Below are positions 17,246-21,401 of a DNA stretch of 64,000 nucleotides, piece after piece. Below the pieces are notes generated by a model. The model made no database searches and was not told the DNA's origin. It was given only the letters and a program-made list of their open reading frames with translations. The first letter of the stretch is position 1, and each line of letters starts with the position of its first letter. Source of the stretch: Prochlorococcus sp. MIT 1307. Lineage in GTDB: Bacteria > Cyanobacteriota > Cyanobacteriia > PCC-6307 > Cyanobiaceae. The DNA lies in assembly GCF_034092395.1 (NCBI RefSeq), contig NZ_CP139301.1, positions 1,860,001 through 1,924,000 of the forward strand, read 5' to 3'. The position numbers and the translations under genes are program-made.

Positions 17246-17632
17246 ATGTCTAAGGTTATTCCTCTTATTTCAATAGGCTCTCAGGTAAAAATTGCCCCTG
17301 AAAAAGTTCGAGACCGAGTTCCGCGCAGATTGAGCGAATTGCTGTCTGAGCAACCGTTTGGAACAGTTGTTGACTACAAAATGACTGATGGTACAAGCAT
17401 TGGATTTATCTTAGAGTTAAGTGACGGCTCAATTAGTTGGTTCTTTCAAGAGGAATTGAAGATTTTAGAGGAGGGGGGGGCATCCTTAGCACTTATCAAT
17501 GAAAAAGCTAGAGAAGTTGCTAAGGGCAAGATAATAGAATACCCAATTATAAATACGAATAATATTATAGATATTTTGAATCCATTTAATTTCTTGAGAT
17601 GGCTTTTGTATTCTCTAAAAGATATCTACTGA
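17246..17632 (+). CDS. PetP-like SH3 protein (DUF2862/Tsr0524 family) with C-terminal extension
   Basis: 128 residues. Residues 7-75 match the DUF2862 pattern: a basic strand (GSQVKIAPEKVRDRVPRR), then GTVVDYKMTDGTSIGFILEL and SWFFQEEL. In cyanobacteria this family is PetP, a small SH3-fold subunit of the cytochrome b6f complex that affects electron flow. Classical PetP has only about 65-75 residues. Here about 50 more follow, ending in an aromatic segment that may touch the membrane. The function is inferred from the family, and a paralogue with another role is possible. Confidence 0.62.
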   Translation: MSKVIPLISIGSQVKIAPEKVRDRVPRRLSELLSEQPFGTVVDYKMTDGTSIGFILELSDGSISWFFQEELKILEEGGASLALINEKAREVAKGKIIEYPIINTNNIIDILNPFNFLRWLLYSLKDIY

Positions 17633-18077
17633 CGGCTTTGTTCCAGTTGTTAATTTCAAGTCTTCTGATTGCTTTTTAATTGGATTGCTAAAGAATAAAA
17701 CTTATTGATATTAATTAGCTAAATGCTTTATTTCATGCCTCCCTTTAAGGCTTAAATTTTTTAAGATTAGTCCCTGATGTTAATCTTGATGCTCTGATTA
17801 GCTTTATATATTTATAGTTAAAAATATCATACCTAAGCTATCCAAGTGATAGCTAATCATAATTAGCGCCTGTAGTTAAGTTGTAATTGGCTCCGGATTT
17901 AATTTTAGTTCTTAATCAGCCAAGCTTCTTATCTCTTGCCGCGCAGAGGCTTGACTCCATCCTTCCTTCAAAAGTAAATTTTGTATTTCATGCCACCATG
18001 GCCTATATAAATATATAGCAGCATTCACATATGAGACAAAATGAACTAAATGCTATTCCGCTAGTGATTGGACTTTA
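17633..18077. other. AT-rich region with a possible short ORF and a small hairpin
   Basis: About 445 bp before the first tRNA. AGCTATC-CAAGT-GATAGCT at 17836-17854 is a perfect 7-bp hairpin with no T-run. A possible 38-codon frame is listed separately. Nothing else is supported. Confidence 0.4.
17912..18028 (-). CDS. Possible short protein or C-terminal remnant (38 codons)
   Basis: A GTG at 18028 opens a 38-codon minus-strand frame ending at 17912. The translation contains RPWWHEIQNLLLKEGWSQ and ends RQEIRSLAD. The composition looks protein-like, but there is no clear ribosome binding site. It lies just beyond the 3' side of the first tRNA-Arg, so it could be the leftover end of an older inserted gene. 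Not recognised. Confidence 0.25.
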   Translation of the reverse strand: MNAAIYLYRPWWHEIQNLLLKEGWSQASARQEIRSLAD

Positions 18078-18081
18078 GCAA

Positions 18082-18155
18082 CGCTCCCTGCAAGATTCGA
18101 ACTTGCGACAAGCTGCTTAGAAGGCAGCTGCTCTATCCAGCTGAGCTAAGGGAGC
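18082..18155 (-). tRNA. tRNA-Arg (anticodon UCU), copy 1
   Basis: A complete cloverleaf reads on the minus strand: acceptor GCTCCCT/AGGGAGC, D-arm GCTC/GAGC, anticodon stem GCTGC/GCAGC with loop CTTCTAA, and T-arm GCAAG-TTCGAAT-CTTGC. The anticodon TCT decodes AGA. CCA is not encoded. It is identical to the copy at 20399-20472; identity also covers four bases past the discriminator, giving a 78-bp perfect direct repeat (18078-18155 and 20395-20472). Confidence 0.95.
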
Positions 18156-18266
18156 TGGCGGTTTTTGTAACCATTTGGTCACTGGGCTGGTCACTGAGAG
18201 AAAACAGTAACGAACCGTTTCTCAAATTACTAGTTAGCCCTGCCTGCATTCAAGAAGAAGTGGGTT

Positions 18267-18995
18267 TTAGGTATTAGTTACTTTTAACGAGCTTTTTTTA
18301 CCAGTATATTTCTTTGCTATTGATTTTGTAGTGCTTTGAGTAGCTCTATTCAATTTAAGTTCAATGATCTCTGCCTCTAAGACTTTGATTTTATGCTTGA
18401 GTTTGATGTTTTCAATTAAAATGGTTTCGAACCTCTCAATCTTTTCACTGTCCTTCATCTGGTTTGAAGTCGATATAGCTTGTTGAATTAATTCTGGAAG
18501 CCTTTTCTGCACTGAAGACTGTTTAATGATCATTGATAGATCACTTTCCTTAAAGCCATTGCCTTGCTTGATAATGCTTATAGCAAGATCTTGTTTTAAT
18601 TTCTCAACCTTGCCAATTTTTGCCAAAGTTCTAGCGGAGACATGGATTAAAGCGCTCTCTGGAATCTCAGCTTTGCATAACCAACTATCGAAGGCCGAGG
18701 CTAAATCTCTTGCAACTCTTCCATTGATCCTCAAAATATTTGAGTTAGTTAGCTGAACCCATTGTTTATTTTTTACCAACTTTTTTATCTCAGATAAAGA
18801 TTTAGCTGCTTTGTAAACAGATTGACCAGCAGCAGAGAGGGCATTATTGCTAACTATTATTTTGGCTTGAAGAGTATTTGTTTCGTCAGCTGAAAGCTTT
18901 TTCGTGATTTCAGGTGAAAGTTCAGCTAGCTGTAATGATTCATAAGAGTTGTCGCTTCTAGCTAATTCATCAGTAATGGCAGCAGAATGACTCAT
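18267..18995 (-). CDS. Uncharacterised helical protein between duplicated tRNA-Arg genes
   Basis: 242 residues, not recognised. Almost entirely helical by composition. The middle (SLSEIKKLVKNKQWVQL ... GRVARDLASAFDSWLC ... SARTLAKIGKV) loosely resembles the helix bundles of DUF3102-like plasmid and phage proteins. About residues 185-220 (heptads of I/L with K and E) look like a coiled coil, and a basic tail follows. No membrane segment. A DNA-binding or structural role in the element is possible but only inferred. It is the last gene of a minus-strand group that starts at 19723. Confidence 0.65.
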   Translation of the reverse strand: MSHSAAITDELARSDNSYESLQLAELSPEITKKLSADETNTLQAKIIVSNNALSAAGQSVYKAAKSLSEIKKLVKNKQWVQLTNSNILRINGRVARDLASAFDSWLCKAEIPESALIHVSARTLAKIGKVEKLKQDLAISIIKQGNGFKESDLSMIIKQSSVQKRLPELIQQAISTSNQMKDSEKIERFETILIENIKLKHKIKVLEAEIIELKLNRATQSTTKSIAKKYTGKKSSLKVTNT

Positions 18996-19131
18996 TGAGC
19001 AACCAAAAATAATAACACGACTCTAGGGTATCTAGGTTGCCTAGTTGCTTGAGCTTAGGCTCCAAGTTTTGGACGAGGCGACCAACCTCGAAACTAAAGG
19101 CACTTTTCTCGGATAACGCCTAAAGCTCTAT

Positions 19132-19278
19132 TTAGCTATCTTTACCCTCTTGGAACTTGGCCACAACCGCTTTTACGCCACCCCACAGTATTTTTAAAAT
19201 CAAGAATCCAAAAGCTACTGCGCCTGCTGCCATAGCAAGACTCAGTACTGTTGAAAAAGGACTGGCTACTGCATCCAT
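19132..19278 (-). CDS. 48-residue single-span membrane protein
   Basis: ATG at 19278, stop at 19132. The layout is a short polar N-terminus (MDAVASPFS), a hydrophobic span of about 22 residues (LSLAMAAGAVAFGFLILKIL) and an amphipathic basic tail (GGVKAVVAKFQEGKDS). The size and charge pattern resemble filamentous-phage major coat proteins and small holin-like peptides, but no family is recognised. It lies between the 80-residue membrane protein and the 242-residue protein on the same strand. Clean alternation of hydrophobic and polar segments supports a real gene. Confidence 0.5.
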   Translation of the reverse strand: MDAVASPFSTVLSLAMAAGAVAFGFLILKILWGGVKAVVAKFQEGKDS

Positions 19279-19319
19279 CTTGAGAAGTTGTCCAAATTAA
19301 GAACAACTTTAAGGCTCAA

Positions 19320-19562
19320 TTAGGAGGAGCTTTTAACCTCATATACCTTTGATCTGCCATTGCACTTCCTGACCCCCCATGAGATAGGAGCACCAGATTT
19401 TGCTTGCTCTTGCTCAACACAGATATTTTGATTATTCGCCCACTGAGCAACTGGACGCAAACTCACAGCAATAAATGCAAGACAAAAAGCGCACAACAGT
19501 AAAGCAACTCCATTGAGGATTTTGAAAACATCAAAATTGTTGCTCTCTGGAGTGTCAGCCAT
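19320..19562 (-). CDS. 80-residue membrane-anchored small protein
   Basis: A polar N-terminus is followed by one hydrophobic span (residues 15-35, LNGVALLLCAFCLAFIAVSL). The remaining 45 or so residues hold a Cys in QNICVEQ and one in RKCNGRS, which could form a disulfide if this side is outside the plasma membrane. No known family. Middle of the minus-strand small-protein group between the two tRNA-Arg copies. Confidence 0.6.
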   Translation of the reverse strand: MADTPESNNFDVFKILNGVALLLCAFCLAFIAVSLRPVAQWANNQNICVEQEQAKSGAPISWGVRKCNGRSKVYEVKSSS

Positions 19563-19600
19563 TGTTAAAACCTAAGTTGTCCCATTTTGGTACAACCTAT

Positions 19601-19723
19601 CTAACCACCTGACCATTGGGTCATCGCTGGATACCCAACGAAGAAAACGATCACTTTGCTCAATGCCCAGCCAATCGAAAGACAAATTACAACTGGAAGC
19701 ACAACACCTTTTAGGGTCTCCAT
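19601..19723 (-). CDS. 40-residue single-span membrane protein
   Basis: ATG at 19723, stop at 19601. METLKGVVLPVVICLSIGWAL begins a hydrophobic span that runs to about residue 31, then the short tail PAMTQWSGG. It is the first of three tiny membrane proteins on this strand. Too short for statistical support by eye. The case rests on its hydrophobic pattern and on its position 38 bases upstream of the 80-residue gene. Confidence 0.42.
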   Translation of the reverse strand: METLKGVVLPVVICLSIGWALSKVIVFFVGYPAMTQWSGG

Positions 19724-20398
19724 ACTGCAGTCTACTTAGATAAAAACGACCTTAAGACTAGTTTGCAGGTATAGGTAGTTTTAATTGTTAGTCTTAATGG
19801 ATCTTAGAGACTGCTTCTGCTGAATACTTCTTCTGTTTTGTATGCCAGCTATAAGCAGATCTGTACCCAATGTCTTCTAAGTCTGGTTAGGTATTGAACA
19901 GGAAGTATTTTTTCTTTTTTCCCTAGGCCCTCTAATACCTAAGCATTACATAATCCAGTTATTAGCTGATAGCTAATAACATGTAAACCTCAGCTATATG
20001 TAGTACTTCTCTAATTTCACGTTAATGTTTAGCCTTGCCTTTATTAATGACATCCTTTTGACCTTATTTCAACAACTTTCTAATGACAGATTTCAATTTT
20101 GAGAGCTATAGTTAAGAGATTAGGAATGATATGAGCCAAAGAAGTATAATTCAATAGGGATCACCTAGGGGGCAGGCAACAATAAGAAGTTCTTCCAGTC
20201 TTCTCCCTATTTAACTAATGCACAAAATAATGCACAAAACTAAATGTTGCTCAAGAAGTTGTGAAGAAACTAACTTGTATTTATAGTGCCCCGCAAACAT
20301 CTTTTTGATCAAGGTGAGATTCCAAAGGATCTAAACAGTCATAGTTGCTTTGGTAAGTTTTTCCTTGGGACCACTTGCAGAAACAGGTGTTTTGGCAA
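19724..20398. other. Gene-free region between the small-protein group and the second tRNA-Arg
   Basis: About 675 bp without a convincing gene. It should hold the promoter of the minus-strand group. It contains the perfect hairpin at 19958-19980 and a short direct repeat (AATGCACAAAA at about 20218 and 20230). A 30-codon open stretch on the minus strand around 19794-19886 has no start codon. Confidence 0.4.
19958..19980. repeat. Perfect 10-bp hairpin with 3-base loop
   Basis: GTTATTAGCT-GAT-AGCTAATAAC. No T-tract on either side, so it is not an obvious terminator. It shares GATAGCTAAT with a hairpin at 17836-17854, outside the first tRNA copy. Confidence 0.55.
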
Positions 20399-20472
20399 CG
20401 CTCCCTGCAAGATTCGAACTTGCGACAAGCTGCTTAGAAGGCAGCTGCTCTATCCAGCTGAGCTAAGGGAGC
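20399..20472 (-). tRNA. tRNA-Arg (anticodon UCU), copy 2
   Basis: Same complete cloverleaf as the copy at 18082-18155, with no base difference. The flanks differ immediately outside the 78-bp repeat. Both copies look functional. Which one is ancestral cannot be told from this window. Confidence 0.95.
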
Positions 20473-20540
20473 ACATTGATATTGTGTCAGTCAAAGTGTA
20501 ACCTCAACGACTATGGTTAGGTGTATGAAATGCACCTATT

Positions 20541-21401
20541 GTGGCAAGACGGCTTAAAGACAGCGAGAAGAAGAGTCTTGTGGAAGGTTACCGCTCAGGG
20601 GCGTCGACCACATCCCTTGCAAAGGAATATGGCTGTAGTCAAAATACAGTAATAAGGACTGTAAAGGCCTTTTTGACCTTGGCGGAATATAACGCGTTAA
20701 AAGCTGCCCGTTTTAAGGGTGAAGTATTACTTAAAGCTGGGGATGTAGAAGAAGTAGAAAGTTTGTTTGATAATAAAAACTCACTTTCAGTTCAGGAAAC
20801 AGTACGTAAGAATCAAGCGAAGGAGTTAGAAATTAGCAGTAATGAAGAGGAAGTTAGTTCACATACTAAAGAAAAGGAAGTTGATAAGGAAGTCAATCTT
20901 CCTGGCACTTTAGGGTTGGATGATACTGATGAGTGTATAGATAATTCATATGGAAATTCTTTTGATGGACAAGTCGCTGAATCCAATAAAGAAGAGTACT
21001 TGCCTTTAGATGTGTTTCAAGAAGTTGTTCCGCTTGTTTCTAATTTTGAAGTGACTGAACCTAAACAAGTTGCTTGTAGAAGTTTTGGACCTGGGGTTCT
21101 TCCTAGTGTTGTGTATATGTTGGTAGATAGGTCAGTTGAATTGGATGCTCGACCGCTTAAGGAATTTCCTGAACTTGGCTTGCTCCCCAAGGTTGATCAA
21201 GATAGGCATGCAATTTGCTTGTTTTCTAATCAAAGAGCTGCAAAACGCAATTGTGGCCGTAGTCAAAGAGTGATTAAAGTTCCTGATACTGATGTATTTG
21301 GAGTCTCTAAGCCTTTTTTGTTGGCACGTGGTATTACAAGGTTGGTTTTAGAAGGAGCATTAATAGCTTTAGATGAGGAGCCTTCGATTAGCAGGCTTTG
21401 A
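20541..21401 (+). CDS. Helix-turn-helix protein of unknown function
   Basis: 286 residues. Residues 1-45 form a Hin/transposase-like helix-turn-helix (EKKSLVEGYRSGASTTSLAKEYGCSQNTVIRTVK). About residues 75-160 are acidic and low-complexity, probably disordered. About 180-286 form a conserved-looking domain with RSFGPGVLPSVVYMLVDRSVELDARPL and GRSQRVIKVPDTDVF. There is no transposase or resolvase catalytic domain, so it is more likely a DNA-binding regulator or architectural protein. It diverges from the adjacent tRNA-Arg copy with 68 bp between. Confidence 0.68.
   Translation: MARRLKDSEKKSLVEGYRSGASTTSLAKEYGCSQNTVIRTVKAFLTLAEYNALKAARFKGEVLLKAGDVEEVESLFDNKNSLSVQETVRKNQAKELEISSNEEEVSSHTKEKEVDKEVNLPGTLGLDDTDECIDNSYGNSFDGQVAESNKEEYLPLDVFQEVVPLVSNFEVTEPKQVACRSFGPGVLPSVVYMLVDRSVELDARPLKEFPELGLLPKVDQDRHAICLFSNQRAAKRNCGRSQRVIKVPDTDVFGVSKPFLLARGITRLVLEGALIALDEEPSISRL

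Follow-up and report, generated by a model that had tools for sequence, protein, structure and literature searches.

The region analysed here lies in a 64-kb window (bases 1860001-1924000) of the Prochlorococcus sp. MIT 1307 genome (G000), which is complete in a single contig of 2.03 Mb and in which the whole region has a single colinear match. ARAGORN finds two tRNA-Arg(UCU) genes in the window, both on the minus strand (18082-18155 and 20398-20473), and no third tRNA besides this pair; above the Rfam threshold there is likewise nothing except these two genes, which score equally, as intact tRNAs (68.7 bits). Each is contained complete in one copy of a direct repeat of 82 bp (18074-18155 and 20391-20472), which has one mismatch (18077 A versus 20394 G) and cannot have arisen by chance. 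Its core of 78 bp, without differences between the copies (18078-18155 and 20395-20472), is the perfect repeat with the whole tRNA that a previous sequence-only reading had reported. Towards 5′ the identity stops with the first nucleotide of the tRNA and towards 3′ past GCGTTGC, and the flanks outside the repeats differ, again in agreement with that reading. The repeats stand 2.2 kb apart and, as the gene list confirms, enclose only minus-strand genes, for proteins of 40, 80, 48 and 242 residues. On the left the conserved flank is marked by petP, encoding a cytochrome b6f subunit (17246-17632, plus strand; PF11061, E 4.7e-23; NF050003), and on the right by a gene for a helix-turn-helix (HTH) protein (20541-21401, plus strand).

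Three of the enclosed genes encode small membrane proteins of 40 (19601-19723), 80 (19320-19562) and 48 residues (19132-19278). Compared with their closest relatives, they show dN values of 0.03-0.05 and dS values of 0.24-0.52 (0.047 and 0.24, respectively, for the 48-residue gene); since dN is far below dS, the three genes are real and evidently under purifying selection. In the congener G006 the trio is found in the same order, 40-80-48, within a polysaccharide island to which tRNA-Ala(GGC) is as near as about 1.2 kb; the 40-residue protein is 92.5% identical there, and a copy of the 48-residue protein with 94% identity is encoded at a second locus of G003 (Prochlorococcus sp. AG-363-P01; contig C3). 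In a test that uses short genes (48 and 120 codons), identity at third codon positions is 76% for the 80- and 40-residue genes against G006, where core windows average 50% and 0 of 461 are as similar, none exceeding 57.5%; comparison of the 48-residue gene with its copy at the second G003 locus gives 85%, a value that none of 3293 core windows reaches (mean, 51%; best, 81%). This excess, together with dS values well under those of core genes (1.2-2.0), argues that the module moved horizontally, later than the species splits. The 80-residue gene found at the tRNA-Arg site of G003 has a third-position identity of 57%, near the core level, which indicates that part of the module has long been here, and an older version of it has, as far as the sequences tell, decayed in place in G003.

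The earlier description of a cassette of small membrane proteins is right about these genes but hides that the 80-residue one is a widespread Prochlorococcus gene that has been relocated. Of the 300 genomes, 88 have a member of its family, as do 34 of the 59 genera, and in several other genera the gene is divergent to that of an AbrB-like membrane protein. The AbrB-like gene is elsewhere, not beside it, in G000 (about 154 kb away), G003 and G004, and therefore the 80-residue gene has moved in the genus of G000; it is near a tRNA hot spot in G000, G003, G004 and G006. Neither the 80- nor the 48-residue protein has a significant family in Pfam, PHROGs or NCBIfam, and no relatives of the former are found in IMG/VR. 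Separately, several other Prochlorococcus genera (loci L200-L216) carry a 48-residue-like gene a few hundred bases from petP, which suggests an old link between the two.

The fourth gene (18267-18995, minus strand) encodes a 242-residue protein with a predicted ParB/Spo0J-like HTH domain and a C-terminal coiled coil. Its AlphaFold2 model (pLDDT 77, pTM 0.56) is helical, with a long coiled coil at the C-terminus, and the top VIA-align rows for residues 33-161 belong to the ParB family (Spo0J, ParB, SopB and Noc; Z 8.1-5.0 over 93-132 residues). For a helical model such a likeness to ParB/Spo0J is no more than suggestive, and the protein may bind DNA; it differs from ParB, Spo0J and SopB in lacking the ParB N-terminal domain, in an identity of about 10% and in having no significant Pfam match. 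Foldseek gives E values above 1, with a weak likeness to DUF3102 phage proteins. No significant family was found in PHROGs or NCBIfam either, nor was there any significant hit in a profile search against PDB sequences. Close relatives are patchily distributed, in seven other genomes among the 300, and in three of these the gene lies downstream of tRNA-Ala(GGC), at a distance of about 300 bp; none is found in IMG/VR viral contigs or in phage records. Behind two genes of the family (L033 9940-11052 and L036 497-1609) there is in each case a small gene, with the ending SHWANRTYEEYKDAA and GHWANRGFEEYKRAA, respectively, so that the pair is recurrent. A stretch of the draft G006 genome (L035, G006:C21:1-16009) holds a gene of this family alongside a tyrosine integrase gene that adjoins a host-like sulfotransferase gene, as well as the gene of a T7-like RNA polymerase, which shares about 27% identity with those of cyanopodoviruses; the stretch is possibly an integrated podovirus-like element.

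The two tRNA copies can be told apart by what precedes them. About 40 bp upstream of the right copy, which forms the host-side junction (20391-20473), are shared with G003, G004 and G005, three congeners with only one intact tRNA-Arg each; beyond it follow the HTH gene, which adjoins tRNA-Arg in these congeners and in other genera, and then rsmI, cysQ and pnp, as in the congeners. The left copy (18074-18155), a complete second tRNA at the distal junction, has an unrelated upstream sequence, here called x. The right copy is, on this comparison, the one with native upstream bases, and those before the left copy are foreign. The one-tRNA empty sites that the sequence-only reading had proposed to look for do exist in related strains. 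G004 has a single tRNA-Arg with petP 250 bp off and no tRNA trace in the spacer, that is, an empty site; in G005, again with a single tRNA-Arg, other cargo (a DUF2811 gene) lies between the tRNA and petP; and at the G003 site an intact tRNA, the 80-residue gene and x are followed by a decayed tRNA-Arg, the counterpart of the left copy, which scores above all of 1000 shuffled sequences (0/1000). With G003, G004 and G005 each differing in this way, the related genomes do not all carry both tRNAs and the same genes at core-like divergence. On the separate contig that holds the second G003 locus, a partial tRNA-Arg and x are directly followed by the 48-residue gene; taken together, the two loci of this genome indicate that x plus tRNA-Arg is the end of a unit with variable gene content.

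Arm x (18156-18262, about 105 bases) lies directly 5′ of the left tRNA and contains a direct repeat of the form AGTGACCA-N4/5-AGTGACCA. Its exact motif TTTGSTCACTNNGCTGGTCACTGAG occurs three times in 300 Cyanobiaceae genomes (G000, G091 and G214), in all 3/3 cases directly 5′ of a complete tRNA-Arg(UCU), and x is also present at the decayed tRNAs of both G003 loci. G006 has a variant of x after its 48-residue gene, with no tRNA-Arg trace beside it (644 of 1000 shuffles score as high). A widened motif brought, beyond the three exact occurrences, only matches with three mismatches, which we treat as chance because the two inspected (G089 and G193) have no tRNA-Arg nearby; a control pattern in the same search also matched twice, in G103. 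IMG/VR contains no match to the motif. Given its position, its repeats and its site specificity, we read x as a recombination arm, which may be bound by the integrase or by an accessory factor.

Other Prochlorococcus genera carry tyrosine integrases, intact or decayed, at this very site. In G214, x and tRNA-Arg are followed 137 bp later by an intact tyrosine integrase of 419 residues. G040 also has an intact integrase, directly after a tRNA-Arg(UCU) (L145 8216-8291) with a normal 5′ half and a foreign 3′ half, an apparent remodelling of the tRNA by an element, and decayed integrase fragments lie directly downstream of tRNA-Arg(UCU) in G162, G295, G283 and G153. The HTH gene is near the tRNA-Arg and integrase in five of these loci (G040, G162, G295, G283 and G153), the G214 contig not showing it. 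In G091, x and tRNA-Arg are followed by a gene for an FkbM-type methyltransferase and then by a partial 3′ copy of the tRNA; the HTH gene of this genome has no adjacent tRNA, so that the x-borne tRNA appears to have replaced the native one. The partial 3′ copies in G091 and G214, which begin in the anticodon stem, and the foreign 3′ half in G040 are what tyrosine recombinases usually leave behind in a tRNA gene. Further members of the G214 integrase family are found directly after tRNA-Ala(GGC) or tRNA-Val, the former being a gene that relatives of the 242-residue protein adjoin as well; in IMG/VR and phage records, no relatives of the tRNA-Arg integrase were found.

In the window, the position of the integrase in these relatives is taken by a gene-free stretch of 667 bp (19724-20390). 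The earlier statement that no integrase lies inside holds for 18156-20390, which contains neither an integrase reading frame nor a recognisable remnant: tblastn with the tRNA-Arg integrase of G214 gave a best E value of 0.46, and a decayed integrase sought in 19560-20400 was not there. A look-alike of integrase-side repeats (TGCAC..AAAA) between the window and G214 was dropped, being AT-rich and in opposite orientation.

We therefore consider it likely that the segment 18074-20473 is a remnant, comparable to a cis-mobilizable element (CIME), of a tycheposon-type element of tRNA-Arg(UCU) that retains its two ends and is now without an integrase. The stripped element suspected from the sequence alone gains support from the empty site in G004, the decayed tRNA in G003, the other cargo in G005 and arm x. 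Several points count against it: no intact element uniting x, an integrase and the 40-80-48-242 cargo was found, the cassette shows no integrase remnant, the integrase-side arm shows no conservation with G214, the x-like arm of G006 has no tRNA-Arg trace, the 80-residue gene at the G003 site diverges like core genes, the test for horizontal transfer uses short genes, and several of the relatives compared are draft single-cell genomes. The best of the other explanations, and still an improbable one, is ordinary homologous recombination through the shared tRNA and its flanks, on DNA delivered by phages, vesicles or uptake, with no integrase ever needed. Repeats of 82 bp that are nearly identical, a cassette without integrase, the G006 module sitting in an island away from tRNA-Arg and neighbouring polysaccharide genes of the kind swapped by flank recombination all agree with it; yet it explains neither the exact, tRNA-specific x in another genus nor the integrases, whether intact or decayed, that six genomes have next to this tRNA.

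It is less probable still that the cassette is a live non-autonomous element, moved in trans by an integrase encoded elsewhere in the genome. Both junctions are intact, although selection also preserves tRNA identity, and the similarity of the cargo dates its movement after the species splits. G000 does carry an intact, full-length tyrosine integrase of the broad family (428 residues; C1:87479-88765, that is, L103 12480-13766 on the minus strand), which makes action in trans possible, though unsupported: this enzyme is 26% identical to that of tRNA-Arg, the 19 kb surrounding its gene show no tRNA, and the viral contigs and phage records mentioned above hold none of the cargo relatives sought there. 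Shorter integrase fragments also lie near this gene. Finally, the idea that the tRNA gene was simply duplicated and that chance placed the small genes between the copies has very little left in its favour, since, common as changes in tRNA copy number are and nearly identical as the two copies may be, their upstream flanks are unrelated and the foreign arm before the left copy recurs at tRNA-Arg sites of another genus, which largely refutes this second option of the sequence-only reading.

For the integrase-stripped remnant, the following course can be proposed. An element whose attachment site comprised the whole tRNA gene plus the adjoining x would have inserted at tRNA-Arg(UCU) through a tycheposon-type tyrosine recombinase, by crossover between its own x-tRNA-(integrase) segment and the chromosomal tRNA, to give the order host upstream-tRNA-integrase-40-80-48-242-x-tRNA-petP. 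As the element's site carries the whole tRNA, a complete tRNA would result at both ends, and neither would have to be restored from the other. Loss of the integrase, presumably an enzyme of the G214/G040 type, would then lead to the state in the window, loss of the distal tRNA to that of G003, loss of the proximal tRNA to that of G091, and loss or absence of the cassette to that of G004. The remnant would be fixed when alone, but could leave or spread if an element with a suitable integrase landed in either tRNA, and could also be removed by recombination between the repeats. The cassette may thus still be able to move, and its present mobility is unproven.

These loci would represent a series of states of a single insertion into a tRNA gene, in a phototroph of major importance in the ocean: an empty site, an element with a complete tRNA at either end, a decayed second tRNA, a site that has lost its first tRNA and where that of the element seems to have taken its place, and fragments that were relocated. 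They suggest a route by which streamlined genomes can acquire and shed tRNA genes, and by which a small conserved gene can be drawn from its usual context onto mobile DNA; in addition, x offers a short, specific motif for finding remnants that integrase-based searches miss. A broader proposal, which we put forward as speculative and rather unlikely, is a whole class of small integrase-less elements with an entire tRNA plus x as attachment site, each insertion donating a working tRNA. Such elements would ferry small conserved host genes, including the widespread Prochlorococcus gene, between tRNA hot spots, drive the birth and death of tRNA-Arg copies and be moved by co-resident tycheposon integrases, perhaps aided by the ParB-like 242-residue protein binding x.

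Among known systems, phage satellites (PICI, PICMI and satellite tycheposons) resemble the cassette in being small islands at tRNA genes that rely on functions encoded elsewhere. The cassette differs from them in that no packaging, capsid or terminase gene was found in it and no relatives in phage or viral-contig collections, and the satellite-like character once considered for it is not borne out. In the search for packaging or capsid-hijack genes, the 242-, 80- and 48-residue proteins had no significant PHROG or Pfam match. As a side observation, just upstream of x and tRNA-Arg in G214 (L093 9233-9584) there are frames that by eye resemble a terminase small subunit with a frameshift, such as a decayed satellite might have.

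The tycheposons and 'cryptic elements' of Prochlorococcus, here compared through second-hand descriptions (PMC10872708, PMC10187409), are closer. Shared features are the border tRNA, followed in relatives by a tyrosine recombinase, the position at a genomic-island boundary and cargo that differs among strains. Tycheposons are given a length of 4-200 kb (PMC10872708), whereas the cassette, at 2.2 kb, is below 4 kb, has no recombinase, and its cargo consists of small membrane proteins together with one protein that may bind DNA; it falls outside the definition as given there, although its parent was likely of the tycheposon kind. The nearest counterpart is the CIME described for streptococcal ICEs and IMEs (PMC5704250), which likewise is without integration genes, keeps attL and attR, and sits at a tRNA. 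Its flanking repeats have their equivalent in the 82-bp repeat with one mismatch, whose flanks are distinct both on the outside and on the inside; in G214 and G091, elements are arranged in tandem around this tRNA, and parent-type integrase elements occupy the same site, intact in G214 and G040 and decayed in the other four genomes. In our case the parent would be a cyanobacterial tRNA element without known conjugation, cis-mobilization would be putative, and both att copies are whole tRNA genes. Set against tycheposons as described second-hand, a Prochlorococcus element at tRNA-Arg that has no integrase and is bounded on both sides by a whole tRNA would be a novel variant.
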